Positions 1,704-22,800 of a stretch of 32,476 bases of DNA are shown in pieces. Within the stretch, counting starts at the first letter, position 1; each line of letters starts with the position of its first letter. The DNA is from Methanobacteriota archaeon (lineage in GTDB: Archaea > Thermoplasmatota > Thermoplasmata > RBG-16-68-12): positions 1 to 32,476 of the forward strand of contig VBLR01000115.1 of the NCBI GenBank assembly GCA_005878665.1. Direction: 5' to 3'. The notes beneath the pieces were generated by a model that made no database searches, had not been told where the DNA came from, and saw only the letters and a program-made list of their open reading frames with translations. Position numbers and translations under genes: made by a program.

Positions 1704-4700
1704 CTAGGTGTATCCGCCCTGGATCAACTTCTTGATATACGGGGTCAGGACCCGAGCGAGGCCCATGTCCCCGTCCCAATCTTCGATCTGGTCCCAGTGG
1801 TGATCTTCCATGTCCTTGATGCACCGCTCGATCTGGCCGGTCCAGCTCTGCGTGCCGTCCCCTTCGATTCTCGCCGCGAGGACGAGCCACCGGCCTCGAC
1901 CGATCAGGATGTGCATGTGGCCGACCGTCATCTCGTTCAGGTCGGCGTAGTCGTCTCCGCGAAGCGCGTCCTTCACGAACGCTTGCACGGCCGTGAGCAT
2001 CCCGCTCAGGATGTCCGTGTCGACGTCGGGTCGAAGTCGACGGGTCTCGTGCTTGATGAGGAGTCCATCCTTGTGATTGAGGAGGAACACGTCCTCGACG
2101 ATCGCCTCGCTCTCCTTCGCGGTCGGAGCCGCAGGGGAAGGCTTCGATCCCGTTTGTGATCGACGCCGCACGAGGAAGAAGAGGGCCCCCGCAATCGCGG
2201 CGGCCACGAGCAAGAGGATCCACCAGAATTGCCCCAACAGGTTGGGGGCCGTTGCGAACTGGAATGTCTTCGACTGGACCATCGAGTTTCCCGCGAGGTC
2301 GCGCGCGCTCGAATCGATGACGACGAAGTACGTCATCCCGGATTGCAGCTCGCGGGTCGGGACGAATGTCACCGTCCGGGAGTCCGGACTCCACTGGAAG
2401 GAGCCATCGATCGCCGGTGTGATCGAGAACGCCTGCTCGACGGACGCCTGATCCATCCCTTCGCTGAAAGTGATCCGTATCCACGGGGTCGTGTTCGTGT
2501 CCGCGCCAATCGGGCGGGTGTCGGTCACGAACGGATTGATGACGTCGATCAGAGTCCATGTATCGTTCACGGCCGGCGTGGGCTCGACGTTCCCCGCGCG
2601 ATCCCGGGCCATCGTCCGGAACGCGTAGACGTGGGCACCTTGGCCGACGAACGACGCACTCGTCGCGGTCGTGTTGGTGTAGCCCGCGAGATCCGTCCAC
2701 GGACCCGAATCGTCCTGCCACTGCACGTGGTAGCCCGCGATGTCGGTCGTGCCGGTCGCCGGGCCCCAAGCGATCGTGAACTGGATTTGGTCCTCGTAGT
2801 TCGGCAAGAAAACCATGACCGAGTCGGGCGGAGTCGCATCCACGATCGTCCACGAGTCGTTACCAGCGGTCATCTCGACGTTCCCCGCACGGTCCGTCGC
2901 GTTCGAGCGGAAGGCATACGTATGGCCGTCCACGCCGGTGTACATGGCGGACGTCGTCGAGGCCGTTGTGACCATCCAATCCGACCAGGCCCCGCCGTTG
3001 TCGCGCACCTGAATCCGGTAGCTCGCGATGTCGAGGGTGTCGAACTGCGGTCCCCAGTAGACCGGGAACGTGAGCGACGTTTCGTACGTGGGAAGCTTAA
3101 GGGTGTGGGAGAAGGGCCGGCCCGTGTCGACCAGGGTCCAGGTGTCGTTGCCGGCCGTGATTTCGAAGTTCCCCGCACGGTCCGTCGCATTCGAGCGGAA
3201 CGCGTAGACTCCCTGCCCAGTGCTTACGAACGTCCCCGAGGTCGCGGTCGTGTCGACGAGCCAATTCGTCCATCCCGCGGCTCCGGCGTTGTATTGGATC
3301 GTATAGGACGCGATGTCCGTGACCCCGGCGTCCGGCGCCCAGGACACGGTGAACGAGTTCGTGTTCTTGTACGCACTCAGCGGGTTCACATGGGAGCCCG
3401 GTCGGAGCGTGTCGACCGTGGTCCAAGTGTCGTTCGCGGACGGACCCGCTTCCCGGTTTCCCGCACGGTCGTCCGCCGTCGTCGCGAACTCGTACACCCC
3501 ATCGGCGGATGCTGTGAACATGAACTGGCCAAAATTCCCCGCGGGTTGGACCGCGTACTGGACCCAGACCGCGCTCCCCCCGGTCCGATACCAGAGGGTG
3601 ATGTTTCCCAGCCCGGTCCCGTTCCCGTCCGAGGCCGTGTACCAGACCGAGAACGTCAGGGCGCTCTCGTATGTCGGCAAGGAGCCGGCCGCAGAGGTCG
3701 GGGCGATCTTGTCCACCATCACGAAGGATTCTGTATGGCTCGTGCCCATGTCCACCGACCGGGGATCGTTCGCGAACGAATACGGCGGATACGTCGCGCT
3801 GACCTGCGTCTGGTTGTCCGTCGGCAATGGGGAGTCGATGTAGACCCGATCGGTCACCAGGATCCACGGTTGGACTCCGCTCGGGGTTGTACGATCCCAA
3901 ATCCGCGTGCTCCCATCCATGACGACGACATGCGCTCCCCCAACGGGTGTGAATGCGTTGGGCCAGAGCGCGTCGACTTCGAGGTAGTTCTGCACGGTGA
4001 GATTTCCCGCGGCCATCACGGCCCATTTCGTGAAGGGGCTGTTGATCGCGGTCGCCTCGGTATAGTTGTCCACGTAGAATTCGTAGCTGCCGACCGACGT
4101 CAACGTCGCGTTGTCCGCCGTGAACCGCGTGGTGAACGTGTTGTTGCCAATCAGGAAGTATCCGTCCGCGTACGAGGCCTGAATCGGTGCGCCGTTGCCG
4201 GCCCCGCCCTTCGTGACACCGGAAATCGTATCGCTCGCGGACCGGCCGTTCGCGACGAGACCCGAGGCAATGCCGTACGCGTCTCCACCGCGGCCGCCGT
4301 CCGACGCGTCGAGTGCGTCACCACCCCGGCCGCCTTGCATCGTGGTGACCCGGTTCGAAGAGAGGTTCGGAGATACGAATACCTCCGCGGCCCCCGCCGC
4401 CGTGCCTCCGTTGCCGCCGAACCCCGTGCCGATTCCGCCGGCTCCTCCGGTGACGGTGTCGACTTGGTTGTAACTGGTCTGCGTCTTGTTGAACAATCCA
4501 TCATTGTTCCCGAAGAAGACGATGCCCGTCGCGTTGCCGCCGTACCCGCCGCGCACGCCGAGGCCCCCGGCTCCGCCCGTCATCGTCGTGAAGGTGTTGG
4601 CGTGGACCGTCGCGATGCCGGCGACATAGAAGACCGCAATGCCGTTCGCCGCGCCGCCGGTTCCGCCGATCCCGGAACCACCACCGGCCGCCGCCCCGTT

Positions 4701-6008
4701 CCCGCCAATCCCGCCCCGGACCGTCTGAATGGAATTGCCGCTGGCGTCGGCGTTCATCGCGATAATCAGGAAGAGTCCTTCGGCGTCACCGCCCGCACCG
4801 CCGTTGCCGTTCGTCGCACCCTTCCCGCCCGCTCCTCCGTTGCCACCGGCCACGACATCAACGGTATTCGCGGACAACTGGCTGCTGCCTGAGGAGCTCG
4901 CCACCTCGATGGCGACGGCCGACCCGGCATCTCCGCCTCGGCCCCCGGTGACGGTCGTGGCACTGCCGCCGCCTGCGCCGCCGGATCCGCCCGATACCGT
5001 CGTGATCATGTTCCACTGAATCGTCGCGCCCGGCGTTCCGACGACGACAATCCCGGCCGCGGAACCACCGTTGCCGCCCCGACCGCCGGTGCCTCCGGCG
5101 ATCGCTTGACCGTCCCCACCGCGTCCGCCGGTCACGCTGTCAATTGTGTTCGCCGTGATCGAGGCCGAGGGCGCCGCGACTACATAGATCCCCGCGCCGA
5201 TCGATCCGTCCCGGCCCGGGGCTCCGGGGACCCCACCGGGCGCCCCGCTGAATCCGCGGACGCCTTGAATCATGTTTCCGTCAATCGATGCGGTCGCGCC
5301 GGCCGTCAGGAGGATGCCCATCGCAAAGCCGCTGCTCACATTCGTGATCGTGTTGCGCGAGATCGTCGGGGTTCCAGGCTGCTCGACCTGGATGCCGATT
5401 CCGGTGGCGTTGATTGCGTTGTTCGTAATCTGAACATTCGAGGCGTTCGCGTACACGCCGACGTTCGTGGCTCGCAGGATCGTGTTGCTCGAGACGAAAC
5501 TCGAAGACCGAACGAAGGCGAAACCGACCCCCGCTTGGAGAATCGTGTTGCTGATGATGTTCGGAGAGCTGTCGGTCGCCGTGATCGCGCGGTCGGCTCG
5601 GTCGAAGGTCGACCAGGAGACGGATCCGGACGAGCTCGCATTGAACTGAATGCCGCCCCATGGAAACGGCGACCCGGTGTTGTTTGCGGTGAAGGTAATG
5701 GGTTTGGCCGGGGTCCCATCGGCCGTCAGCCTCCCCTCGACGAAGAGGTGGACGCCAGGATCGAACCTCACTATCGTTCCAGGCATGATTGTGAGGGCCC
5801 CTGAAGGACGAATCGTGAGCGGACCTATTACCGTGTAATTGATGTCGGCTCCGCCTCCCCAAGTCGTGGGCACGCTGATGATCCCTCGGACATAGGTCGT
5901 GGCGCTCGTGGTCGGAGCGGTGACTAACAAGATGGCGCCGACGGAGCCGAGCACGGCGAAAACAATCGCCACGCTCCTGATGGAGGACCACGACGGGTGG
6001 GGGCGCAT
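1704..6008 (-). CDS. Large cell-surface protein (protein A): signal peptide, right-handed beta-helix with Gly-rich insertions, FN3/Ig-like repeats, Big_5-like domain, C-terminal TM and cytosolic domain
   Basis: 1434-aa ORF. N-terminal hydrophobic segment SVAIVFAVLGSVGAILLVTAPTTSA; parallel beta-helix repeats (NNAINATGIGIQV, SRNTITNVSSG); repeated GGxGG segments; four copies of a 'DTWTxVDxxxPxSxxxLPxYE...YAFRxxATDRAGN' module; ITFSEGMDQASVEQAFSITP Big_5-like domain; TM FWWILLLVAAAIAGALFFLVRRR; cytosolic tail EDVFLLNHKDGLLIKHETRRLRPDVDTDILSGMLTAVQAFVKDAL. Confidence 0.9.
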   Translation of the reverse strand: MRPHPSWSSIRSVAIVFAVLGSVGAILLVTAPTTSATTYVRGIISVPTTWGGGADINYTVIGPLTIRPSGALTIMPGTIVRFDPGVHLFVEGRLTADGTPAKPITFTANNTGSPFPWGGIQFNASSSGSVSWSTFDRADRAITATDSSPNIISNTILQAGVGFAFVRSSSFVSSNTILRATNVGVYANASNVQITNNAINATGIGIQVEQPGTPTISRNTITNVSSGFAMGILLTAGATASIDGNMIQGVRGFSGAPGGVPGAPGRDGSIGAGIYVVAAPSASITANTIDSVTGGRGGDGQAIAGGTGGRGGNGGSAAGIVVVGTPGATIQWNMITTVSGGSGGAGGGSATTVTGGRGGDAGSAVAIEVASSSGSSQLSANTVDVVAGGNGGAGGKGATNGNGGAGGDAEGLFLIIAMNADASGNSIQTVRGGIGGNGAAAGGGSGIGGTGGAANGIAVFYVAGIATVHANTFTTMTGGAGGLGVRGGYGGNATGIVFFGNNDGLFNKTQTSYNQVDTVTGGAGGIGTGFGGNGGTAAGAAEVFVSPNLSSNRVTTMQGGRGGDALDASDGGRGGDAYGIASGLVANGRSASDTISGVTKGGAGNGAPIQASYADGYFLIGNNTFTTRFTADNATLTSVGSYEFYVDNYTEATAINSPFTKWAVMAAGNLTVQNYLEVDALWPNAFTPVGGAHVVVMDGSTRIWDRTTPSGVQPWILVTDRVYIDSPLPTDNQTQVSATYPPYSFANDPRSVDMGTSHTESFVMVDKIAPTSAAGSLPTYESALTFSVWYTASDGNGTGLGNITLWYRTGGSAVWVQYAVQPAGNFGQFMFTASADGVYEFATTADDRAGNREAGPSANDTWTTVDTLRPGSHVNPLSAYKNTNSFTVSWAPDAGVTDIASYTIQYNAGAAGWTNWLVDTTATSGTFVSTGQGVYAFRSNATDRAGNFEITAGNDTWTLVDTGRPFSHTLKLPTYETSLTFPVYWGPQFDTLDIASYRIQVRDNGGAWSDWMVTTASTTSAMYTGVDGHTYAFRSNATDRAGNVEMTAGNDSWTIVDATPPDSVMVFLPNYEDQIQFTIAWGPATGTTDIAGYHVQWQDDSGPWTDLAGYTNTTATSASFVGQGAHVYAFRTMARDRAGNVEPTPAVNDTWTLIDVINPFVTDTRPIGADTNTTPWIRITFSEGMDQASVEQAFSITPAIDGSFQWSPDSRTVTFVPTRELQSGMTYFVVIDSSARDLAGNSMVQSKTFQFATAPNLLGQFWWILLLVAAAIAGALFFLVRRRSQTGSKPSPAAPTAKESEAIVEDVFLLNHKDGLLIKHETRRLRPDVDTDILSGMLTAVQAFVKDALRGDDYADLNEMTVGHMHILIGRGRWLVLAARIEGDGTQSWTGQIERCIKDMEDHHWDQIEDWDGDMGLARVLTPYIKKLIQGGYT

Positions 6009-6072: not shown

Positions 6073-6099
6073 ATATATTACCCAAATGGCGCCGTTATC
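6073..6099 (-). promoter_or_regulatory. Putative promoter of protein A: GATAAC (6099-6094), N13, TATA-like TAATATAT (6080-6073)
   Basis: Minus-strand sequence CGATAACGGCGCCATTTGGGTAATATATCG; TATA-like element about 72 nt upstream of the ATG at 6008. Confidence 0.6.
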
Positions 6100-6103
6100 G
6101 TGC

Positions 6104-8308
6104 ATGATAGCAACTTCGAACCGGGATAATGGCCGTCGCCTGGAGGAGGCGAGAACCTTCAAGCCGCGCCGAGGGTTAGGCGCCGCGGTGCCGCGAACGG
6201 GACTCGACGCGATCTTCTCGCCATCGTCCATTGCAATCGTCGGCGCGTCCCGTCACCGCGGAAAAATCGGATACGAAATCCTGCACAACCTGATCGTGAA
6301 CGAGTACCAGGGGACCGTGTATCCCGTGAATCCGAAGGCGACGAGCGTCCACGGGATTCGGTCGTACCGGAGTGTCCTCGAGATCCCGGATGCCGTGGAC
6401 CTCGCGGTCATCACCGTCCCCGCGGAGGTCGCCATCGCGGCCGTCGAAGAGTGCGGCAAGAAGGGCGTGAAAGGGCTCGTCGTGATTACGGCCGGGTTCC
6501 GGGAGGTCGGCGAAGCCGGAGCGGCCCGAGAGGCGCGACTCGTCGCCCTGTGCGACGAGTACGGCATGACGATGATCGGCCCGAACTGCATGGGCGTGAT
6601 CAACACCCACCCCGACATCCAGATGGACGCGACCTTCGCGCCGACGCCGCCGCTCCCCGGTGGGATCTCGCTCGCGACGCAGAGCGGCGCCCTCGGCATC
6701 GCGATCCTGGACCACGCAAAATCCCTCGGCGTCGGCTTTGCCAAGTTCTGCTCGCTGGGGAACAAGGCCCAGGTGAGCCTCAACGATCTCCTCCGGATGT
6801 GGCACCGGGACCCGGACACGAAACTGATCCTCGCCTACATCGAGAATTTCGGCAACCCGAGGAATTTCGTCCGAATCGCGCGCGAGACCACGAAAGACAA
6901 GCCCGTCATCGCGGTGAAGTCGGGCCGTTCGGAGGCGGGAAGCCGTGCGGCGGTGTCCCACACGGGTTCCCTCGGCGGCTCGGATCTCGCCGCGGACGCG
7001 GTATTCACACAGACGGGGGTGCTGCGAGCGAACTCGATCGAGGAGCTCTTCGATCTCGCCATGGCGTTCGCCTTGCAACCGATTCCCCGGGGAGACCGCG
7101 TCGCGGTGGTCTCGGATGCGGGAGGCCCCGCGATCATGTGCGTCGACGAACTGGTCGCCCAGGGCCTGCGGCTCGCCGAGCTCGACCGGGCGACGATCAC
7201 GTACATGAAGAGCTGGGCTCCGTCGGAAGCGTCGCTTCACAACCCGATCGACCTCACCCCGCAGGGGAGCCTCGAAGATTACCGACGCGCCATGGAGGCC
7301 GTCCTCGCCGACGAAGGCGTGGACGCCGCGATCGCGATCTACGTGCCGCCCGTCCGAGTGAACGAAGTGGATGTCGCGCGCGCAATCTGGGAGACGGCGC
7401 AGAAACATCGGAAGCCGGTCTTGTGCAACTTCCTCGGACGGGCCGAGGACAGTGCGGGCTTCGTCGAGCTGGTGACGCATCGCGTCCCTTCGTATTCGTA
7501 CCCGGAAAGCGCGGCGCGGGCGCTCGCCGCGATGCGCCGGTACGCCCGATTCCGGGACCGGGAGGAAGGGGAGCTTCGAACCTTCTCGGTCAATCGCGGC
7601 GCCGCCGAATCCAGCTTGGCCCGGGCTCGAGCGGAGGGGCGAGCCCTGCTGCGTGGCGACGAGGCGAACATGCTCCTCGAGGCGTACGGGATTCGTACGG
7701 CAGCGACTCGGTTCGTCCGCTCGGTCGAAGACTTGCCCCGCGCCGCGGCGGAGATCGGCTATCCGGTGGTCATGAAGGCGGTCGGTCCGACTCTCATTCA
7801 CAAGTCCGAAATGCACGCGGTCCTGCTAGACGTCCGGGCCAAAGATGCGCTCCTGGACGGGGCTTCCCAGATGGCGCGTCGCCTGCGGGATCGAGGGGTC
7901 GCTCTCGAGGGATTCTTGGTCCAAGAATTCGTGACGGGCGGAATGGAGGTGATCTTGGGCATGACCCGGGACAAGGTCTACGGACCGTGCCTGGTGTTCG
8001 GCCTTGGCGGTATCTACGTCGAGTACCTGAAGGACGTCGCGTTCGGACTGCCGCCGCTGACGGATCGAGATGGGATGCGAATGATCGAATCGATCCGGAC
8101 GTATCCCCTCCTGAAAGGCGTCCGGGGCGAGCGGGCGCGAGATGTGAAGGCAGTGCAAGACGCACTCCTCCGACTCGCCCAACTCGTATCGGACTTCGAG
8201 GCGATTCAAGAGATCGATCTGAACCCGGTCGTGGTCTTCCCGGAAGGCGATGGTTACAAAACGGTCGATGCCCGAATCGCGCTCGCGCCCCCCGCGGCCG
8301 AGACCTAA
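6104..8308 (+). CDS. Acyl-CoA/acetyl-CoA synthetase (ADP-forming), fused alpha-beta subunits
   Basis: CoA-binding motif IFSPSSIAIVGASRHRGKIGYEIL, succinyl-CoA-ligase-like GPNCMGVIN, LATQSGALGIAILDHA, phospho-His-region motif AVSHTGSLGG, ATP-grasp C-terminal part YPVVMKAVGPTLIHKSE...EIDLNPVVVFP. Start uncertain: ORF opens at 6086; ATG 6104 or GTG 6188 also possible. Confidence 0.92.
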   Translation: MIATSNRDNGRRLEEARTFKPRRGLGAAVPRTGLDAIFSPSSIAIVGASRHRGKIGYEILHNLIVNEYQGTVYPVNPKATSVHGIRSYRSVLEIPDAVDLAVITVPAEVAIAAVEECGKKGVKGLVVITAGFREVGEAGAAREARLVALCDEYGMTMIGPNCMGVINTHPDIQMDATFAPTPPLPGGISLATQSGALGIAILDHAKSLGVGFAKFCSLGNKAQVSLNDLLRMWHRDPDTKLILAYIENFGNPRNFVRIARETTKDKPVIAVKSGRSEAGSRAAVSHTGSLGGSDLAADAVFTQTGVLRANSIEELFDLAMAFALQPIPRGDRVAVVSDAGGPAIMCVDELVAQGLRLAELDRATITYMKSWAPSEASLHNPIDLTPQGSLEDYRRAMEAVLADEGVDAAIAIYVPPVRVNEVDVARAIWETAQKHRKPVLCNFLGRAEDSAGFVELVTHRVPSYSYPESAARALAAMRRYARFRDREEGELRTFSVNRGAAESSLARARAEGRALLRGDEANMLLEAYGIRTAATRFVRSVEDLPRAAAEIGYPVVMKAVGPTLIHKSEMHAVLLDVRAKDALLDGASQMARRLRDRGVALEGFLVQEFVTGGMEVILGMTRDKVYGPCLVFGLGGIYVEYLKDVAFGLPPLTDRDGMRMIESIRTYPLLKGVRGERARDVKAVQDALLRLAQLVSDFEAIQEIDLNPVVVFPEGDGYKTVDARIALAPPAAET

Positions 8309-8324
8309 GGGACGCGGTACGAAT

Positions 8325-8726
8325 TCATTCGCCGGGAGCTGGGCCGCTTAACTCGATCCAGATTCCGTCTGGGTCCTCGACGTATGCGAGCAGACTCGTT
8401 CCCTCAACGAACGGAGGATGGCCGACCCGTGCCCCCTTCGAAAGCAGCTCTCGGTAAGCCCGCTCGACGTCCTCGCAGGCGAACGCGATGTGGTCGAGCT
8501 CGTCCCCGTTGCGATACGGTCCTGCGAAGAACTTGGAGCCATCGGGATACCAGTTCAGTTCGAGCAACTGTTTCGATCCCGCGCTGCGAAGCTCTGCCCA
8601 TTCACCCTCTGTTTCCGGAACATGCTGACGGCGGACGACCTGCATTCCAAGAGCGTCCCGGTAGAACGAGATCGAACGGTCCATGTCTCGCACCTGAATC
8701 CCGACGTACGCGAGTTTGTAGCGCAT
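8325..8726 (-). CDS. VOC/glyoxalase-family protein (lactoylglutathione lyase-like)
   Basis: MRYKLAYVGIQVRDMDRSISFYRDALGMQVVRRQ...GDELDHIAFACEDVERAYREL...LLAYVEDPDGIWIEL. ORF extends to 8789, but the conserved start is ATG at 8726. Confidence 0.88.
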   Translation of the reverse strand: MRYKLAYVGIQVRDMDRSISFYRDALGMQVVRRQHVPETEGEWAELRSAGSKQLLELNWYPDGSKFFAGPYRNGDELDHIAFACEDVERAYRELLSKGARVGHPPFVEGTSLLAYVEDPDGIWIELSGPAPGE

Positions 8727-8830
8727 GAAACCGATGGCCCCAGCCACCCGCAGCGCATAAGGGATTTCCCGCCAAACGACGGCGCGCAACGCTTGTAGCC
8801 TCGAAGGGCTATGTCCCTGGGGAGGGGGAC

Positions 8831-9205
8831 ATGATCCAAATTGACGTGGACCTCCCCGATCGACCCGGGGAACTCGCGAAGCTCGCCGCGATCTTGGGAG
8901 ACGCGGGGATCAACATCGACGCGATCGGCGGCGAATCCGCGGGCGGACGATCGTATGTGAGCCTGATCGTGAACCAGCCTGTGCAGGCGAGGGAGGCGAT
9001 GATGAAAAGCGGCTACACCTGCTCCGTGCGAACCGTGCTCGTCGTGCGCCTCGACGACAAGCCCGGAGCCCTCGCCGCCCTCGCCCGGAAACTCGGCGAT
9101 GCCGGGGTCGATGTCGTCAGCGTGATTCATCTCGGCACCGTGGGTGGCCATGCCCAGGTCGCGCTCGGCGTCGACAACCTGGAACGAGCCCGCTCCCTTG
9201 TCTGA
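8831..9205 (+). CDS. Tandem ACT-domain protein
   Basis: MIQIDVDLPDRPGELAKLAAILGDAGINIDAIGG... and a second VLVVRLDDKPGALAALARKLGDAGVDVVSVIHLG; SD-like GGGGAGGGGG upstream. Confidence 0.85.
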   Translation: MIQIDVDLPDRPGELAKLAAILGDAGINIDAIGGESAGGRSYVSLIVNQPVQAREAMMKSGYTCSVRTVLVVRLDDKPGALAALARKLGDAGVDVVSVIHLGTVGGHAQVALGVDNLERARSLV

Positions 9206-9247
9206 CCTCGCCCTTGCCCCGACCTGACAAGCGCCCTTCTCACGACC

Positions 9248-9273
9248 GATAACCAAAGCCCGTTTCTTAAATA
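9248..9273 (+). promoter_or_regulatory. Putative promoter of protein B: GATAACCA-N10-CTTAAATA
   Basis: GATAACCA (9248-9255), AAGCCCGTTT, CTTAAATA (9266-9273); start codon about 78 nt downstream of TTAAATA. Confidence 0.65.
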
Positions 9274-9307
9274 AGGCGCGGGCCGCTCGATTTCTCCGTA
9301 CACGAAG

Positions 9308-9327
9308 CGCGAGGAGGTTCCCTCGCG
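9308..9327 (+). promoter_or_regulatory. Hairpin in the predicted leader of protein B (7-bp perfect stem, 6-nt loop)
   Basis: CGCGAGG-AGGTTC-CCTCGCG read directly; overlaps SD-like AGGAGG. Confidence 0.4.
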
Positions 9328-9344
9328 ACCCAGGCGGTCAGCGT

Positions 9345-10748
9345 ATGCAAGGGGCGATCGAAGCTCTGCTTTCCGGTCTCGTATTCCGAGGGCTCGGCCC
9401 CGCCGTCTCCGGAATCCTCATGGCGGCTCCGCTGAAGAAGGTCGCTCGGGCTCAGCTCAAGAAGATTTACGTCCTCGATGAGCGGGGCGAGATGGCCGGC
9501 GAGTACGTCCTCGATTCGGACTGCCCGATCGACTACAACGACTTCCTGAAAGTCCTGCCGGACGAAGGAATCGGCGACCGCGATTCGCTCTTCGTCGGCG
9601 AATACGTGTTCACGGCCTTCCAGAGCGGTAAGTTCGCGTTCGTCCTTCTGTCACGCGGCCAGCTCGCACCGGACGATGTCAACTGGACCGCCCTCCTCCT
9701 CACGGCCGCGGATTCGCATCTCGCGTCCGCGGCGAACCGCCCCCCACCTGCTCGTACCGAACCGAAACCGGATGCCGACAAGGGATTCGCGGAGCGTGAC
9801 GCACGCCTCCAAGCGAAGGAAAAATCCCTCGCAGAGCTGGAGGCAAAACTCAAAGCGGACGCGGCGAACGTGAGCGGGCGCCAGGAGGAGCTCGACCGGC
9901 AGAAGGCGAGGCTGGCGGCCCTCGCCGACTATTCCACCCAACTTCAGGACGCGGTGTCCAAAGGAGCCTCCCGATCCGCGAAGACCCTCGAAATCGCGGA
10001 ACAACTCGCGGCGAGTTCCAACGAGGAATCGAAGAAGGCCGAGTCGAAAGCCAATTCGGAAGTACGACAGGCGTTCGAGCAAGAGCGAAGGGCGCTCATT
10101 GCCGCGAAGACCGATCTCGAGACCCGTTACCAAGAGGCTTCCGCGCGGATCGCACAGCTCGAGAAGGAAGCGAAGGACTCCGTCGCCATCCTCGAGAAGG
10201 AGCGGGCAGAGGCCTCCGCCCGGGCCGCGGAAGATGACAAAACGCGCCGCGAGATCGAGAGCCGCGTGGCCGACCTGAGCCAGCGTTTCACTTCGATGGC
10301 GAAAGAGCGCCTCGTCGCGTCCCATCGCCCCCCGGGCGAAGTCTCCGAGGAAGTCCGGAAGGCGATGGAGGGCGAGAAAGCCGAGTTGGCGCGGGAGCGC
10401 AAATTCCTCCAACGACGGGCGATCGAGCTCTTGGATCGCGAGGAGCGAGTCCGGGACCGCGAAGCCCGGGTCGACGATCGGGACCGTGAATTCGGGCGGC
10501 GGGAGCAGGATCTCGCGGCCCGCGAGCAGGATTTGGACCGGCAGAGGACCCTCCTGGCCCAGGCGAAGCCGCAAGCCCCCGAAGTTCGCGCCGAACCGGA
10601 CGAAGCGAAAAAAGACATCGAACGGCGCGTGAAAATCATCCAGCAGAAGGCGCTGGAACTCCTGGATCGCGAGGAGAAGCTCCGAAAGCGCGCAGCGGAG
10701 CTGGAGGCGATGGAAGCTCGACTCGCCGGTCGCGTAACGGCCGAGTGA
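9345..10748 (+). CDS. Coiled-coil protein (protein B) with small N-terminal globular (longin/roadblock-like?) domain; paralogous to the cytosolic part of protein C
   Basis: 467 aa. Hydrophobic/amphipathic N-terminus MQGAIEALLSGLVFRGLGPAVSGILMAAPLKK; domain KIYVLDERGEMAGEYVLDSDCPIDYNDFLKVL...FVLLSRGQLAPDDVNW; long charged heptad-rich helix; C-terminal RVKIIQQKALELLDREEKLRKRAAELE matching the C-terminus of protein C. Confidence 0.85.
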   Translation: MQGAIEALLSGLVFRGLGPAVSGILMAAPLKKVARAQLKKIYVLDERGEMAGEYVLDSDCPIDYNDFLKVLPDEGIGDRDSLFVGEYVFTAFQSGKFAFVLLSRGQLAPDDVNWTALLLTAADSHLASAANRPPPARTEPKPDADKGFAERDARLQAKEKSLAELEAKLKADAANVSGRQEELDRQKARLAALADYSTQLQDAVSKGASRSAKTLEIAEQLAASSNEESKKAESKANSEVRQAFEQERRALIAAKTDLETRYQEASARIAQLEKEAKDSVAILEKERAEASARAAEDDKTRREIESRVADLSQRFTSMAKERLVASHRPPGEVSEEVRKAMEGEKAELARERKFLQRRAIELLDREERVRDREARVDDRDREFGRREQDLAAREQDLDRQRTLLAQAKPQAPEVRAEPDEAKKDIERRVKIIQQKALELLDREEKLRKRAAELEAMEARLAGRVTAE

Positions 10749-10779
10749 CCGGCTCTAGTTCTCCAAGGAAATCAGGTCA

Positions 10780-10805
10780 GATAACCACCAAACGGCGCTT
10801 AAATA
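10780..10805 (+). promoter_or_regulatory. Putative promoter of giant gene C: GATAACCA-N10-CTTAAATA
   Basis: GATAACCA (10780-10787), CCAAACGGCG, CTTAAATA (10798-10805); same boxes and spacing as upstream of protein B. Confidence 0.65.
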
Positions 10806-10872: not shown

Positions 10873-13800
10873 ATGTGCCGCACTGCCAGGTTCCTACCAC
10901 GACGTCGCACGAGGTGCCTCGACTCGAACTCCCGGTCCTCCGGCCACGTCGATGAGCGGCAGCGCCGGTCGTCGCGACCCCTCCGCCTCCGTCCAGGACG
11001 TGGTGGTCTCGTGAAGGCGGGAACCGCGATCCTGCTCGCCTTCATCCTCCTCGCGACTGCCATCCTGGTGGTCGCAAGTCAGTCGATGCCCGACCCGCTC
11101 GCGAAGTTCCGGACCCCGGACGGTCGGCTCACGATTCCGGGGCGTGCACTGACATCGGAACTGCAACGATTGCTGTTCCATAGTAATGATCTGCAGCCTT
11201 ACACGAATGTCACCTTCCTGCTCCCGGCGAGATCCACGTATCCGACGGAGCGCCTCGTGGCCATGTCATTTGCATCTCCAAATCTCAACGTCTTCGTCCA
11301 TCTACGTCAAGCGCCGGAAACGTGGGGCAGCGCCATTGACCACGTCCTCCGAGTGTGGTTCCCACCGGTCGACTGGCACGAAGTGGGAATCGGAATCCGA
11401 GACTCGGTCCGGGACGGCGTAGGGTGGTTTTTCGATCTCTTCACGATGAACGCCAAGGCCGATACATTGTCGGTGGATTCGACCACCGTCTCGGTCGTCG
11501 ACCCGGCCGCCGCCACCTGCACGACCTCTCAATCGGCAGCGGCGGGAGACAACGCGGTGCTCGTGATGCTCAGCAATCGCGGCCCGACCGCATACACCAC
11601 CGTCACTTACGGCTCGGTCAGCCTGGGTCTGATTGCTGGGACCGCCACGAGCGGCACGGGATTCGTCCGGACGGAGATGTGGTTCTATCAGGGCGCGATT
11701 CCGAGCGGGGCGCAAACGATGACGGCCACGCTGGTGAGCGGCACCGCGAAACAGGTATGTGCAACGGTACTCCTGAGCGGCGTCTGGGCCCCGACTCCGA
11801 CTGCAGGAGGAACCAGCGCCAGCGGGACGACCGCGAATCCGAGCATTTCGATCTCTCCGGCATCCGCCGGCGAGCTGGCTTTCGCGGTGATGGGGATTCG
11901 AGGGACTACGGCACCGACGGCGGTCACCGGCACGGGAGCCACCGCGACGAGTCTCTACGGGATTGCGCCGACCCAGTGCACCAGCGCCCCCTCCACTTCA
12001 TGCGGAGCGGGGGCCGACATGCCCTTCCCCGGAACGGCAATCACGTGGACGGACGGCAACGCCACGGACTGGGTCGTTTCCGCGGTTCGTGTATTGCCCA
12101 CCCCCAACTGCGGCGCTGCATCGGGGAATTGCTACCGGATTGGCGCGGGCGGGACGTGGGCCACGGGCGCGAATTGGTCGAATACGTCCGGCGGGGCAGC
12201 GTGCGGCTGCACTCCGGTGGCAACGAACAATGCCATCTTCAACGCCACCCCCACGGGCACCACGACTCTCGCCGCGGCGACCACGATCGCCAGCATCGAC
12301 ATGACGAACTTCACCGGCACGCTCGATACGACCGCATCCAATTGGGGCCTGACGGTGAACGGCCCGTTCGCCATCCAAGGCACCCTCCTGGCCCGGAATT
12401 CGACCATCGTCGTCACCGGAGACGTGGTCATGCTGACCGCGGGGACGATCGTCAATCTCGGCGCATCGGCGTGGACGATCAACGGATTGTGGACGAATCT
12501 CTCCACCTCCGCCTCGTGGGTCGCGGGGACGAGCACGGTCACGATCCGAGATGCCGCGAGCGGGACGCTGACATTCGCCGCACTCGCCGGCGGGACGAAC
12601 GAGTTCAACAATCTCACGCTCGATGCCACCGTGACCACCAGCATCACCTACACGATGGCGGCGAACCCGCTCCGGATGGGAGCGACCCTCACGATTCGCA
12701 ACTCGACCGGCGGGGCGACGGGACCGACCATCTTGACGACATCGGCGTCGAACCTCGGCATCACGACGGGCGCGCTCGCCCTTACGACCTTTGGAAGCCT
12801 GACGGCGAATGGGTCCGCCGTCGTGGTCAACGGCAACGTGAACGTCAGCGCCGCGAACGGCTACGTCGTCATGGGTTCGTCGACCTGGACCGTCACGGGC
12901 ACTTGGACGAACGCTTCGACGTCCGCCTCATGGAGCGCCGGGACGGGCACGGTCACGTTCACGAGTGCGACCGGCGGGACGATGACGTTCGCCGGTGCGA
13001 ATCTTCCCGGGAACGAGCTCAACAACGTTTCGTTCACCTCCTCGGCCGCGTCCGCCCAGACGTTCACCATGGCAACGAGGGCCCTGATCTGGGGCGGGAC
13101 GCTCACGATCTCGGACGGTTCTTCGACCACGGCGCTCGCAACGGCGAGTCTCGGCCTGACTGGCGGCGCACTCAGCGTCGGCAACGGCGGCATCCTCACC
13201 GCGAACGCATCCACGGTCACGGCATCGAGCGTGGCGATGACCGGGGGAACGAGCGGAACGATTACGCTCACGACCAGCTCGTTCACCAGCACCGGCAACT
13301 GGGACACGAGCGGAGCCGGCTCCGTGTTCACGAAGGGAACGAGCACGGTGACGATGAGCGGTGTGGCTAACATCGCCATTCTGAACGCGAGCAACAACTT
13401 CAACAACCTAGTCATCTCCGCGGCGGGAACGGTCACCCAATCCGGGCTCGTGGACGTCTCTGGGACGTTGACCGTGAATGGCGGCTCGGTCCTCGCGAGT
13501 GGCACCTTCACGTTGACCGTGGCCACCCTCGCGGCGAACATGGCAGGTGGAATCACGGCAGGAGCGGCAGGCACGAAGACCATCACCGGGAATGTCAGCA
13601 TCGCCGCCGCGGGATACTTCAGCTTCGGCGCGGCGACCTGGAACTTCGGCGGTTCGTGGACGAACTCGTCGACGAGTGGATCGTGGTCCGTCGGAACGGG
13701 CACGGTCGTCTTCAATTCCGGCTCGTCTCGCACAATGACCTTCGCCAACTTGGGAGTCTCGGAGTTCAACAACGTGCAGTTCAGCCCGACCGCCGCAGCA

Positions 13801-16800
13801 ACGTTCACCATGGTCACGAACGGCCTGCGGTGGGGAGGCACGCTGACGCTCAACAACAATGCGACCCTTTCGACCGGGAACCTCGCGCTGACGGGCCCGG
13901 GCGGGAACCTCACCGTGAACAACGGGGCCACCTTGACCGCGGGCACGTCGGTCGTGAGCGCGACCAACGTGACGATGACGGGCGGGACCTCGGGAGCAAT
14001 CACGGCCTCCGGGTCGTGGACCGTCTCCGGAAACTGGGACACATCCGGAGCGGGCTCCGTACTCACCGCGGCTTTGAGCACGGTGACGCTGAGCGGAACC
14101 GCGAAGACCGTCCGGATCCTGAACGCATCCAACGGCTTTGGGGCACTCACGATCAGCGGCACGGTTTCCGCGGCGTCGGCAATCACCCTCTCCGGCCTCC
14201 TGACGGTCAGCGGCACCTTCGACACGACCGCGACCAACTACGGCCTGTCGATTGGCGGTGGCCTGACGGTCAGCGGCGTCGCGGGAATCCTCCGGTCAAA
14301 TGGATCGACGGTCTCTGTGGCCGGGAATGTTTCCGTGAACAATGCGGGCGGCTACATCACGTCCGGCGCCGCCGGTTCGTGGACCGTCTCGGGATCCTGG
14401 ACGAACACGTCGACGTCCGCATCTTGGAATTTCGCGGCGTCCATCACGTTTAACTCATCGGTCTCCCAAACGATGACCTTCGCGGTCCTTCCCGGAGGCG
14501 CCGCCGAGTTCACCGACATCGCGTTCAACAGCGGTCCGTCGACCGTCACGTTTACCATGGCGACGAATCGCCTCATCTGGTCGGGGACCTTGGCGGTCCA
14601 GGGTGGGGCCGGAGCGACGACGCTCGCTACGAGCAACCTGGGCCTCACCGGCGGCGCAATCACCATCGACGACGGCGGCGTGTTGACCGCGAATGCATCG
14701 GCGGTCAGTGCATCGAACGTCACGATGACCGGCGGTGCGTCAGGTACGCTGACGCTTACCACGGGCGCATGGACCATAACCGGTAACTGGGACACATCCG
14801 GCGCAGGCTCGACCTTTACGGGCACGGCCAGCACCGTGACGATGACCGGGGCGGTTACGACCGTCAAGATCCTGAACGCGTCGAACGGGTTCGGAGCACT
14901 CGTCATCGGTGGCACCGTCTCCGCCGCCTCGGCCCTCACGACCGCGGGGCTCGTGACTGTGAGTGGTACGCTCGACACGACGGCGACGAACTACGGCCTC
15001 ACGGTCGGCGGCGGACTCACCGTCAGCGGTGCGAGTGGGGTGCTCCGCTCGAATGCGTCGATTGTCTCCGTGGCCGGGAACGTGAGTATCAACAACGCCG
15101 CGGGCTACATCACATCGACGGCCGGCGGTTCTTGGACCGCGTCCGGATCGTGGACGAACTCCGCGACGTCAGCCTTGTGGAGTTTCGCCGCTCCGATCAC
15201 CTTCAACTCGTCGGCCTCGCGAACGATGACGTTCGGTAACCCGCCCCTCGAATTTGGCGGGAACGTCACCTTCAACTCCGGTGCATCGACGGTCTCTTTC
15301 ACGATGGCCGCAAACAGCCTAGACGTCGGTGGGACGCTCACAATCGCAGGCGGAGCCGGAACGACGACGCTGAATACGAGTGGTTCAAACCTCGCCATCA
15401 ACGCGGTCGCATTCGTTGTGAACGCGGGAGGAGCCCTCACGGCCAACGGGTCCACAATCACCGTCACATCGATGGACACCCATCTCGGCACGTTCGCGGT
15501 CGGCGCCTCGACCGTCGTCGTGAACGCCTCGGGCGGCACGATTGACATCACGCAGACCGTCAACAATCTCACGGTCAATCCGGCCGTCTCGACAACGTTC
15601 GCTGGATCCCTCACGTGGACGGGAACCCTCACCTTCACGAGCGCCGGGACCGTCGCGTTCGGAACGAATAGTCTGACCTCCAGTGGCGCCGCGACGTTCA
15701 CGTTCGCGTCGGCGACGGTCACGATGAGCTCGGGGAACTGGGATACGTCTTCGGCCACGACCTTCACTGCGACGAGTTCGACGGTTACGTTCTCAGGGAC
15801 TGGAAATCTTCGGATCGGGGGGAGCGCCTCCTTTGATGTGCTCGTCGTCAGTGGCGGCACCCGGACTCTCCAGAGCCAACTCACGACGGCGGGACTCCTG
15901 ACCCTTTCGGGCGGCATCCTCGCCAAGGGGGCGAACGCTCTCACTGCTAACACCGGACTGACGATGTCAGGAGGCGCGATCACGTCCACCTCCGGTGTTG
16001 TCAGCATCACCGGCAATGTATCGATCGTGGCAGCCGCGTCCTACATCGTCTTCGGTTCCGAATCCTGGACCGTGAGTGGCTCGTGGACGAACAATTCCAC
16101 GTCGGCGAGTTGGTCGATCGGAACCGCGACCGTGGCCTTCAACGCGTCCTCGGCGCAGACGATGACGTTCGCGGCTCTCCCGGGGAACGCACCCGAGTTC
16201 TACAACGTGACCTTCAATAGCGGCGTGTCGACGGTCACGTTCACGATGACGGCGAATGCCCTGGCTTGGTCCGGAATCCTCACGGTCCAAGGCGGGAGCG
16301 GGGTGACGACGCTCGCCTCGAGCAATCTCGGACTCACGGGAGGCGCCATCGTCGTAGGCAATGCGGGAGCCCTCGCGGCGAACGCCTCCGCGGTGTCCGT
16401 CTCCGGGGTGACGATGATCGGAGGTGCGAGCGGCACGTTGACGTTGACGACCGGTTCATGGACCGTCTCCGGCAGCTGGAACACAAGCGGGCTGGGCTCG
16501 GCATTCGCGAAAGGCACCTCGACGGTCACCTTGACCGGGGCCGCGCAGACCGTATCCATTCGCAACGCATCGAACGGGTTCTACAATCTCAGTGTCTCGG
16601 GCACAATCACTCAATCAACCGCCATCGATGTGTCCAATTCGTTGACGGTGAGCGGAGCGCTGGCCACCGGAGGGTTCAACATTACGGGCGGTTCGAACCT
16701 CTTCGTCCCGGATGGTGGCACCCTGGCGGCGGGCACGTCCACAGCCACGTTCACGAACGTCACGATGACCGGAGGAGTCTCTGGTACGATCTCCCTCACC

Positions 16801-19800
16801 GGAGCCTGGACGGTGAGCGGTTCTTGGGACAGCACGGGCGCAGGCTCGGTTCTGAACTCCGGGACATCGACCGTGACCTTCACCGGGACCTCTCAGACCA
16901 TTAGCCTCGCGGCGGGCCAGATGTTCTACAATCTCACGATCGGTGGTACAGTCTCCATCAACTCGACGGCGACCGCGGCGGCTTTAATCGTGAACAACGG
17001 CGCCGTCCTCACAAAGACGGGCCAGACCATCGCCTTCAACACCCTGACAGAGAACGGGACCGGGAGCATCGTCGACGGACCGATTACCGTAGTGAACTTC
17101 TCCGTCACGAACAGCGATGGAACGAACCTCACGGCCATCAGCGTGTTCACGACGTGGACAATCGACGCGGACTACACATGGACCCATTCATCCACCATCG
17201 CGACCTCGACGATCACCTTCACGATCGGGGGCAACACGAGCGGCCACCGATTCAATGTGACCAAGGACGCCGTTGATTTCACCAACGGGCTCGTGAACGG
17301 TTCCGGTCAGATCATCTTCACGATGCTCGGCTCGGACCCGGTCGTCGACGTCCGCCTTTCATCGTCTTGCGGGGGGAATCGATACTGGATCGGCGGGGCG
17401 GGTAGCTGGTCTCAGACGGCCCACTGGGCGGATTCCTCGGGCGGGGTGAACGGATGCTCCGTGCCGAGCTCCTCGAATGCGGTCTTCTTCGACGCGAGCT
17501 CCGGAGGAGGAACCGTCACGATTAATCTGAATGCCGCCGCGTCTTCGCTCAACTCGACCGGGTGGACGGGGACGCTCGCGATCGGGTCGTTCGACCTCGC
17601 GGTCGGCGGCGACATCACCCATGCGGCGGGAGTCATTTCGATTGGCCCCTCCTCCAACGCCGGCCTGACGGCAACCGGGACTCTCACCCTCTCAGGTTCC
17701 GCCGTCCTCGACGGGTCCGGCGCGGCGTCCCTGGTCACCGTCTCCGGCGACGCGTCAATCACCAGCACGTCGGCTTACTTCCGGATGGGCACTGGCACCT
17801 GGACCTTCGGAGGGTCCTGGTCCAACGGCAGCACCTCGACGAACTGGGTCGCCGGAACCGGCCTCGTGATCTTCGATTCTTCGTCCTCGCAGACGCTCAC
17901 TTTTGCGAATCTTGCGGGGGACGAATTCCACAATGTGACATTCCAGTCCGTGGCGGGCAGCGGGACAATCACCTTCTCGATGGCGGCGAACGGCCTGCGG
18001 TGGGGTGGACTCCTCGTGATCCAAGATTCCGCGGGTTCGACGACCACGCTGGTGACATCGAATCTCGCCCTGACCGGTGGATCCCTTACGGTCGGCAATT
18101 CGGGAGTCCTCATCGCGAACGCATCGAGCGTCGCCGTGGTGGATGTCACGATGGCCGGCGGAGCTTCCGGTACGCTGACCCTCACGAGCGGGTCTTGGAC
18201 CGTAAGCGGGCAATGGGACACGTCCGGCGCCGGTTCGACGTTCGCTCGGGGCACGAGCACGGTTACCCTGTCGGGCACGTCGGCGAGTGTCACGACCCTC
18301 GATGCGACCAATGGATTCAGCAATCTGGTCATTTCCGGCACGATCACGCAGAACACCGCGATCGACGTGCGCGGCACGCTGTCGGTGAGTGGCACGCTCA
18401 CCACATCGGGGAACGACCTCACGGGCGGCGCCAACCTCACGATCTCCGGAGGGGGGAGCCTGGTCGGGACCTCGTCGTCTATCGTCGTCTCCGGGGTGAC
18501 GATGAACGACGCAGGGACGAATTCCATTTCCCTCACGACCGGCTCTATTTCCGCGTCGGGTACATGGGACACCTCCGGGGCGTCCTCGGCATTCACTGCC
18601 GGCTCGTCCACCGTGACCCTCACCGCCGCCTCCGCAACGATGGCGCTCGGGCCCGCTCAAGCGCTCGCGTCCTTGATCATCGCAGGGAACGTCTCGTTGG
18701 CATCCCCGTTGACGGTCTCCTCCCTCACAATCTCCTCGGGCGGACTCGCGAAAGGCCCGCACCCGCTGACCGTGAACAGCAATCTGACGCTGGCGGGCGG
18801 CTACCTCACCTCGACGTCTGGGTCGGTCTCGATCGCAGGAAATGTGAGCATTTCTTCGGCGTCGTCTTACATCGCGTTTGGCTCGGAAACCTGGATCGTC
18901 TCCGGGAATTGGACGAACGCCTCGACCTCGGCATCTTGGTCCGCAGGGTCTGCCGTGGTCACATTCAACGCGACGACGGACCAGATCATGACATTCGCTG
19001 GGGCCAACCTTGCTGGCAACGAATTCAGCACGGTTGAGTTTGACAGCGGCTCCTCGACCACGACGTTCACGATGGCCGCAGATGGCCTTGTGGCCCAGAC
19101 CATCACAATCCAAGGTGGCTCCGGGACGACGATTTTGACGACCTCGGGTGCGAGTCTCCCAATCATGGCGAATGCCCTGACCGTGGGCATTGGTGGCGCG
19201 CTTACGGCCAACGCCAGCATCCTGACGGTGCGCTCGCTGAGCACCGCCGCTGGCGTATTCGCAGCCGGGACGTCGACCGTCGTCGTCAACCTCTCCGGCG
19301 GCTCCGTCGATGTCACGCAGACGTTGTACGACATCGTCGTGAGCCCTGGAATCAGTACGACCTTTGTCTCGAGCATCACCTGGTCCGGGGCACTAACGCT
19401 GACGAGCTCCACATCGGTTTTCAACGGCAGTCTGATTTCCAACGGCCCGGCGGTCCTGAACCTCGGAGCATCCACGCTCTCCATCGCAGGATCGTGGGAC
19501 ACCTCCTCGACGACGACTCTCACGTCGATCGGCTCCGCGGTGACCTTTACCAGCGTGACCGGCTCGATCACCCTCGGTGCGAGTCAGCGGTTCGCCACGT
19601 TGACCATCGCCGGGACCGTCGCTCTCGCGACCGACCTGAGCGCGGACACCCTGACCGTGACAAGCTCGAACGTATTGACGATGACGAACCACCGCATCGC
19701 ATTCAACAGTCTGACGGTCAGCGGGACGATTACAGACGGATCCGTCAACGTGACCGACCTCACGGTCACGAACAGCGACACGACCGCCTCGGTCACCATT

Positions 19801-22800
19801 GCGGGGTTCAGCGAGTGGTCCCGAGGCTCCTCATACGCCTGGACCCACACCTCGAGCGAATCGTCCCAGACGATCACGTGGACGATCGGTGGAAATGCCG
19901 CGACCATCCCGTACGCCGTGACGAAAGACGGCTCGTCCTTCGCAACCGGAACGGTCAACAGTTCCGGTCAGGTGATCTTCACGATGCTCGGCTCCGACCC
20001 CGCCATGCAGGTGACCGTGCACAACCCGATTCCGCCTCCGTGGTGGCAGTCATCCTATCTGCTTGCGATCTTCCCCATTGGAATCCTCTTGGGTGTTGCA
20101 ATGTTCGCGCAACGACAGCGCTGGAGGCCCGCGAAGGCCTTCCTCGTGGACGACAGCGGGAGAATGCTCAGGGAATTCACCCTGGACCCGGCCTGCCAGG
20201 TCACGTACGACCAGGCGGTGCAGGCTGGCATCTTGGACGCGGTCGACAAGCCGATCAAAGTCACGAAGTACCACGGCCAGACCGTCCGCGGGGACGCGCT
20301 GGGGGTCGTGCTCCTCGCCTACGGGCCGGTCACCCTCGAGCACGTCGAGTTCGCGCGTGAGATGCTGGTCCAGATTCAGGACAAGTTCGAGGACGCCGTC
20401 AAACAACGCCTCGAAGATGCCCGGGCCCAAGAGGCCAGTGTCGCCACGCAGATGGAAGGCCTCGAGGCACGCCGGACGGAAGTCGAGACGCGAGCAGCCG
20501 AGGTCGAATCGATGACCCAGCGAGCGGAAGCCCGAGAGACAAAGATCGCCGCGGACACCGAATCGCTCGAGGCGAAAGAGCAGGACCTCCGCCGACGGGA
20601 GGACGACTTGGCGGAAGGCCGCAAGGCGGTCGATGAGCAAGTGCGACAAGTCGAAGAACTCCGGACCTCGATCGACCGACGTACCGAGGAAGTCCAGGGG
20701 CAGGCGGCCGAGGTCATCGCTAAGTCCGAGGCGGTCCGGATTCGAGAAGAGGGGGCGACCGCGCTCGAAGCGACTCTCCGGCAGCGAGACGACGCGCTTG
20801 GACAAGGAGAGGCCCGCCTGCAAGACGCGATGGAACGCCTCGCGACGGAAACGTCCGAGGTGCATCAGAGGCTGGACGAGGCCGGGCGGCGCGAGGAGGC
20901 CCTGAGCCGGGATCAGGCAGACCTAGCGAACGGCCGTCAGAAGTTCGAGGTGGATCAGAAAGAGCTCCTTGAGTTCAAGCGTTCGATTGACAGCCGGGTC
21001 AGCGCCGTCGAAGAGAGCGAGGCCGCAATGGGCCAGTTGTCGAAAGAGCTCGCGGCACGGGAGGCCCGAATCGCGCCCGACGAAATACGACTCGCGGAGC
21101 GAGCAAATGCGCTCGACCAACAGGAGGCGGAGCTGAAGACCGATGAAAATCGGCTGACCGCGAGGACCCAGGCGCTCATTGCCCAAGCCGAGGACCTGAG
21201 CGCGCGGGAAGTGACGCTCAAAGAGGACCGAGTGGTCCTAGAGGAAGCGCGGGGTGCGTTCGAGTCGGATCGGCGAGAATTCGAGGAGCGCCGTGCGCAG
21301 TATGACGAAGAAATGCGCCGACGCGGGGACGACCTCGATAGCCAGGCGAAGACGTTGGGCGAGAGCCAACTCCGATTGGCCCAGGAGACGGAGACGTTCG
21401 AGGCGGAGCGGACCGAAAAAAGCCAGGCCATCCTTTCCCGCGAAATCGAACTCGAAGCTCGCGAACAGTCTCTCCGGGAAAAGGAGGACGCGGTCCGCGG
21501 CCAGGCGGAGGAAAACGCGCGTCGCGTCGCGGAACTGACGGCCCAAGACGAATCTCTGGAGATCGAGGCGGCGAAAGCGGACAAGCTGCGCGGTGATCTC
21601 GAGGCTCGCAAGGTTGACCTCGCGAACGGCGCGAAGGAACTGGAAGTCGAAGCGGCTCGATTGCGGGACGAGGAAACAAGAGCGGCGGAGGAACGACGGA
21701 CGTGGCAGACGACCCTGGAGTCCGAGCAAGCCCTCCTGAAGGGCCAGCGGGACGCGTTCGAGCAAGAGGCCGCCTCGGCGCGAGCCTCGTGGGCGGATCG
21801 GGTGATGCGGATCGAAGCCCGCGAGGTCGACGCGGAGGAGAAGGAAGAAAAGGTCCGGACGGACGTGGACTGGATCGCCCGGAGCGAGGAGGACCTCAAA
21901 CGCCGGGAGAAGGCCGTCGAAGAGGCCGGGCTGTCCGCGGCTCAGATGAAGGCCACCGCAGAACGCGTCGCGAAGGAGGCCGAACAGCGATTCCTCGAGA
22001 TCGAGTCGCGGGAACGTGCCCTTCGAGAAGAGGCGGCGCAACGCTCCATCGAACTCACACAGCAGACGGAAGGACTGAAGCGAATCGAATCAGAGCTTGG
22101 ATCGAGGCAAGCCGATTTCGAGAAGGAGCGGGTCATGCAGACCGAACGGCTCCGCGAGACCGAGACGAATCTTCAGATGAAGGCCCAAACCCTCGAGGCC
22201 AAGGCCCGCGAACTCGCAGACCGTGAGAGCCGGGTCGCGGCGACGGAGGAAGCGTCTCGCCAGGCCGACTTGCGCGTCCAGCAGGAGCGGGCGGACGTCC
22301 AGGCGACGGCGAAACAGGTCGAATCCCAACAGCTCGAACTCGCACAGCTCAAAGACCGCTACGATTCGGAGGCGGCGCGTGTCCGCAGCGAGATAGAGGG
22401 CATGCGACAATCCGTCGCGGCGAAAGAGGCAGAGCTGCGTGGAGAGAGAGAACGCGTCGAACGGGATTCGGCGGCCCTGCAGGAGACCCTCGGCGCGAAG
22501 GCGAAGGAGATGTCGGTCCGAGAACGGGCGCTCTCCGCGCGAGAGGCAGAACTCCAAGCGGAGGAGCATGAGCTTGAGGCACGCGGGCGGGAACTCGAAT
22601 CAAAGGAGCGCCAAGCCGAGGCCCACCTGACCGAGATGTCCGCGCAGGCGATGGCGCTCATCCGCAGAGAGCAGGATCTGAACACGCGAGGTGCGCAGCT
22701 CGAACAGACGGTCCGTCGGTTCGAGGCCGAAGCGACGGAGAAGCGCCGCGAATGGGAATCCCTCCAGACGAGCCTGAGGTCTCAGGAGGCACAATTCAGC

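Follow-up and report, generated by a model that had tools for sequence, protein, structure and literature searches.

A shared element upstream of genes A, B, and C

Do the promoters of genes A, B, and C answer to one regulator, and does that regulator serve these genes only? The three genes lie in a 32,476-nt stretch of DNA (the window), which is contig 84 of G000, a 1.75-Mb assembly of 178 contigs that is 77% complete. Gene A (1704 to 6008, minus strand) encodes a 1434-aa secreted or surface protein with NosD, fn3-like, and Big_5 domains (Pfam), and its ATG is kept in close orthologues. Gene B (9345 to 10748, plus strand) encodes a 467-aa protein that has no Pfam or NCBIfam match and looks like a coiled-coil scaffold; its start, ATGCAAGGG, is kept in most orthologues. 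Gene C (11011 to 24297, plus strand) encodes a protein of ~4428 aa with a signal-peptide-like N terminus, and a longer, 4474-aa reading of it contained no Pfam domain. A first-pass annotation had noticed a common GATAAC-TATA layout upstream of the three genes and proposed one activator for all of them.

A scan of the window found GATAACCA-N10-CTTAAATA without mismatches upstream of both B (9248 to 9273) and C (10780 to 10805), exactly the pair of 8-mers, 10 nt apart, that had been annotated. These were the sole matches in the window even when three mismatches were allowed (chance expectation, 0.01). The promoter of gene A likewise reads as annotated, with GATAAC-GGCGCCATTTGGG-TAATATAT on the minus strand at 6099 to 6073, equivalent to GATAAC-N13-TAATATA. 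This layout is real, yet it is half of the element. Conservation upstream of GATAAC brought to light a second, distal half-site, which reads TATCA at A, TCTCA at B, and AATCA at C, so that the whole element is an imperfect inverted repeat, TTATC-N6-GATAA(C/T), in which the promoter-proximal half-site is nearly invariant. The putative operator of gene A (6095 to 6110, minus strand; CTATC-ATGCAC-GATAA) matches TATC-N6-GATAA exactly, and those of gene B (9237 to 9252, plus strand; TTCTC-ACGACC-GATAA) and gene C (10769 to 10784, plus strand; AAATC-AGGTCA-GATAA) contain blocks that are invariant in aligned orthologue promoters. The corresponding TATA boxes are TAATATA at 6074 to 6080 on the minus strand for A, 13 nt past GATAAC, and CTTAAATA on the plus strand at 9266 to 9273 for B and at 10798 to 10805 for C, where some orthologues read CTTATATA. 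With at most one mismatch, TATC-N6-GATAA matched the window at A, B, and C only (5 matches, including both-strand doubles, versus 1.1 expected); the window's other promoters lack the full element. GATAAY alone occurred at chance level (10 matches versus 7.8 expected), and GATAAC-TATA with three mismatches was uninformative (15 versus 10 expected).

The annotated TATA-to-ATG distances of about 72, 78, and 74 nt hold for A and B but fail for C. We moved the start of gene C from the ATG at 10873, because in-frame stops lie upstream of the shared start in two close orthologues (L095 and L096); the start common to orthologues is the GTG at 11011, which gives a leader of ~205 nt past the TATA box. 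The leader of gene B contains an inverted repeat, CGCGAGG-N6-CCTCGCG (9308 to 9327, plus strand), which is conserved in many B orthologues with some compensatory change and is predicted to form a consensus hairpin; across nine orthologues, 2 of its 7 pairs show two-sided change and 3 more show one-sided variation. The divergent gene adjoining A (6086 to 8308) encodes an ADP-forming acyl-CoA ligase with ATP-grasp and CoA-binding domains. Since the first ATG of this reading frame falls inside the promoter of A, the true start codon probably lies beyond it, in the downstream direction.

Conservation of the element among orthologues

We aligned 18 promoters of gene B orthologues, in which TTCTCA and GATAACC were invariant and CTTAAATA nearly so, while the flanks varied. 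In 17 orthologue promoters of gene C, the invariant blocks were ATCA, GATAAC, and CTTA(A/T)ATA, and 2 of the 17 carried an exact TATC-N6-GATAA. The GATAAC of gene A was kept in 12 of the 14 orthologue promoters examined, three of them from the sister genus; the remaining two carry GGTAAC, and some A orthologues have a perfect GTTATC-N6-GATAAC. Protein identity in these comparisons drops to 48 to 58%, and the B and C promoter blocks were invariant in orthologues as distant as 56 to 58%. The named relatives that have a gene B are soil and sediment assemblies of Euryarchaeota and Thermoplasmata (e.g., isolates EA_x, RBG_16_67_27, and RBG_19FT_COMBO_69_17). Their sample names agree with the Angelo soils, and from published work we infer that they belong to GTDB order RBG-16-68-12, known as Ca. 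Angelarchaeales (PMC9038741) or Ca. Yaplasmales (PMC9239135).

A fixed distance to the TATA box and a second half-site across genomes

For genome-wide tests, we searched for patterns and took each pattern in reverse as the control. GATAAYN{1,31}TWWATA gave 134 matches versus 4 in the control in eight genus genomes, a total that counts orthologues separately. Although 31 spacers were possible, 95 of the 134 matches had a spacer of 14 nt and another 19 had one of 12 or 13 nt, the kind of fixed spacing upstream of the TFB recognition element (BRE) and TATA box that marks archaeal upstream activator sites. The 14-nt spacer also accounted for 13 of the 18 nonduplicate matches in G000 alone. TATC-N6-GATAA was found 123 times versus 3 in the control in eight genus genomes, with perfect palindromes counted twice, once on each strand. 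The composite of both half-sites and the TATA box occurred 55 times versus 0 in 19 genomes of the genus, 62 times versus 1 in the order's remaining 18 genomes, and 20 times versus 3 outside the order. Four contigs (C43, C104, C138, and C148) have TATC-N6-GATAA sites with no suitably spaced TATA box.

The distal half-site was then measured in 16 different target genes of G000, a set that includes A, the source of the first half-site reading. This test used one site per gene and was a repeat, since automatic sequence clustering had merged unrelated genes; of the clustering, we kept the position frequencies alone, as a hint. Likeness to TTATC averaged 2.7 of 5 at positions -11 to -7 from GATAA, compared to at most 1.7 elsewhere, and 11 of the 16 genes scored at least 3 of 5 at offset -11, versus a maximum of 3 genes at any other offset. 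The half-site centers are thus ~11 bp apart, or about one helical turn, and such an inverted repeat is typical of the operators of dimeric winged-helix regulators. At the other 5 of the 16 sites the distal half-site is slight or absent, so some of these may be chance matches, single sites, or differently bound.

The genes downstream of the element

Each genome (1.7 to 2.5 Mb) has ~12 to 21 GATAAY-TATA sites. Among the genes that the element precedes in G000 are three for Ras-like GTPases in tandem (the outer two carry TATC-N6-GATAA, the middle one TATC-N6-GATA), along with genes for two KaiC-like ATPases, a V4R protein, coiled-coil proteins, and a membrane protein with DUF835. Others encode an ABC ATPase, a Kef-like antiporter, two secreted NosD-like proteins in addition to A, a GPN-type GTPase (next to a divergent coiled-coil gene), a protein that may be of the Roadblock type (score below the cutoff), and winged-helix regulators, two of them small. 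In G007, the element lies upstream of a mechanosensitive channel gene. None of the targets seen was an archaellum gene.

The element is not spread over promoters at large. Among the 15 promoters of G000 with CTTAAATA, 4 carry GATAAY, and the 11 without it include those of ribosomal-protein genes, which we recognized by eye; A general core promoter element would be present at most promoters, those of housekeeping genes included. That A, B, and C have a regulator in common is well supported by the fixed spacing, by the second half-site, and by preservation of the element throughout the genus. The implied restriction of this regulator to scaffold and surface genes does not hold, since in each genome a dozen or more further loci carry the element with identical spacing. 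Read to the letter, this is the outcome that the first-pass annotation had named as counting against it, namely, the motif at the same spacing upstream of many unrelated genes; the set is small, however. Given that signaling, scaffold, surface, and regulator genes dominate it, a theme read from the gene list, and that the ribosomal-protein promoters examined are excluded, the element looks like the mark of a wider regulon rather than a general promoter element.

We also considered whether the element is common to all Ras-like GTPases, which proved false: only the three-gene cluster has it, and the other members examined do not. A PF00071 search of G000 found ~14 Ras-like GTPases in 1.75 Mb, with 15 to 21 matches per genome in the genus. 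A second group of these GTPases (L290, L291, L292, L294, L299, and L302) has a different conserved promoter motif, in order roughly ATTCGCA, CTGACATT, and GTTATAAG. An ABC-ATPase promoter is present in near-identical copies at two contig ends (L006, G000:C109:6331; L010, G000:C53:9515), which represent strain variants or an assembly duplication.

Candidate transcription factors

Two winged-helix proteins, wHTH1 (G000:C75:3177-3575) and a paralogue (G000:C53:1044-1382), lead as candidates for the factor because their own promoters carry the element, and we would put the chance that the factor is found here at a little under even. The 133-aa wHTH1 is encoded in all 37 of the order's genomes that we examined, as well as in 3 of 9 from elsewhere. 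Its promoter keeps GATAATCA across most of the genus, usually as two copies ~32 bp apart, and GATAAT is also present there in f3, f4, and f6 and in the sister genus. TATC-N6-GATAAT stands upstream of wHTH1 in f3 and upstream of the tandem paralogue in f2 and f3; the G000 promoter of wHTH1 has no good TATC partner and instead carries its second GATAATCA ~32 bp upstream. If either protein were the factor, the circuit would be autoregulatory, although a transcription factor need not regulate itself. Several paralogues from this winged-helix family are present in each genome, which makes more than one protein eligible for the assignment. Compared against Pfam and NCBIfam, wHTH1 came near the generic HTH_20, Phr, and Sta1 models, with only HTH_20 above the cutoff, and a search of solved structures returned weak ArsR/Lrp-like matches. 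At L186 and L258, the leading gene of the tandem winged-helix pair is preceded by a conserved block, GAGTATCAAA followed by GAGAACCGGATAGA, which is possibly a different operator.

A model for the element and its alternatives

We think it probable, judging from the motif and its geometry, that the element, set at a constant distance from the TATA box, is the operator of a dimeric winged-helix factor that most likely activates transcription and co-controls A, B, and C with ~20 other loci. A winged-helix dimer would dock on TTATC-N6-GATAA(C/T), with GATAAY most often 14 nt from the TWWATA core, and would thereby sit just upstream of the BRE, always on one face of the helix. From there it would most likely activate through contact with TFB or TBP, recruiting them as is thought for EarA; activation is suggested by analogy, because fixed-spacing sites upstream of BRE/TATA accompany activation in archaea (EarA and TrmBL1/Tgr). 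Genes A, B, and C would in this way be co-controlled with Ras-like GTPases, KaiC-like ATPases, V4R, DUF835, coiled-coil, and NosD-like surface proteins, and small winged-helix regulators.

A dimer in this position might instead hinder or modulate assembly of the initiation complex, as a repressor or dual regulator, which we regard as unlikely. Autoregulated winged-helix proteins are often repressors, and the GATAAT conserved upstream of wHTH1 would suit such a protein; in addition, the target TATA boxes are often good (CTTAAATA) and have no obvious need of help. The operator, however, lies wholly upstream of BRE/TATA at a fixed spacing, and in archaea sites so placed accompany activation, while sites over or downstream of these elements accompany repression (PMC4158304, PMC5512572).

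Fixed spacing to TATA, presence across the order, and the varied functions of the targets would also be expected if GATAAY were a constitutive extension of the order's core promoter (a lengthened BRE or an element that sets promoter strength) that works without a regulator of its own. This is very improbable given how few the sites are in each genome, the ribosomal-protein promoters that have identical TATA boxes and no GATAAY, the other Ras-like GTPase promoters examined that also lack it, and a half-site 11 nt further upstream, which is no core-promoter feature. A recent duplication could account for the likeness of the B and C promoters, with A a coincidence: B adjoins C, their proteins have coiled-coil segments in common, and the 8-mers are identical on both sides. 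Outside the 8-mers, though, the two promoters are unrelated, and their blocks are separately conserved in 17 to 18 orthologues; the conservation at A and the same layout at unlinked genes likewise refute this account, to which we assign next to no likelihood.

Going further than the operator of a dimeric activator, one can picture an order-wide regulon of an uncultured Thermoplasmatota lineage, where two tandem winged-helix proteins that regulate themselves switch on Ras-like GTPases, KaiC-like ATPases, V4R/DUF835 sensors, coiled-coil scaffolds (B, C91, and C150), and giant surface proteins (A and C) as one cell-surface or cell-polarity apparatus. This picture is speculative and, we think, less likely than not.

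Comparison with known archaeal regulators

Archaeal activators with known regulons are few, and with a precise, conserved operator a regulon can be read from nothing more than metagenome assemblies. Here, it links an unstudied pair of scaffold and surface giants to Ras-like GTPase and KaiC-like signaling and comes with specific candidates for binding. Our literature search returned no promoter-motif study naming Thermoplasmatota and none joining this phylum, a promoter motif, and a transcription factor.

Ptr2 and TFB-RF1, as cited in PMC5512572, recruit TBP or TFB from sites upstream of weak core promoters, which resembles the site position and recruitment proposed for our element; they differ in factor family and site and are not known to have a regulon of this kind. 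EarA, a small euryarchaeal archaellum activator of Methanococcus maripaludis and Pyrococcus furiosus and a proposed recruiter of TFB, has sites upstream of the BRE, from which they keep a short, constant distance (9 to 11 bp in P. furiosus), and acts on a surface structure, and both traits recall the present system (PMC10665913, PMC5512572). Its site is TACATA, often directly repeated, whereas here the conserved sequence upstream of the BRE is GATAAY, in an inverted repeat with a TTATC partner, and the targets are GTPases, KaiC-like proteins, and scaffold and surface proteins.

As a sequence, then, the putative operator differs from both the EarA site and the Thermococcales glycolytic motif of TrmBL1/Tgr, TATCAC-N5-GTGATA. 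The latter separates TATC from GATA by N9, compared to N6 here, its targets are sugar genes and ours are not, and at the corresponding offset of -14, 0 of the 16 promoters scored at least 3 of 5. What the two have in common is an inverted repeat of TATC/GATA half-sites placed upstream of BRE/TATA, the position from which TrmBL1/Tgr activates transcription (PMC4158304).
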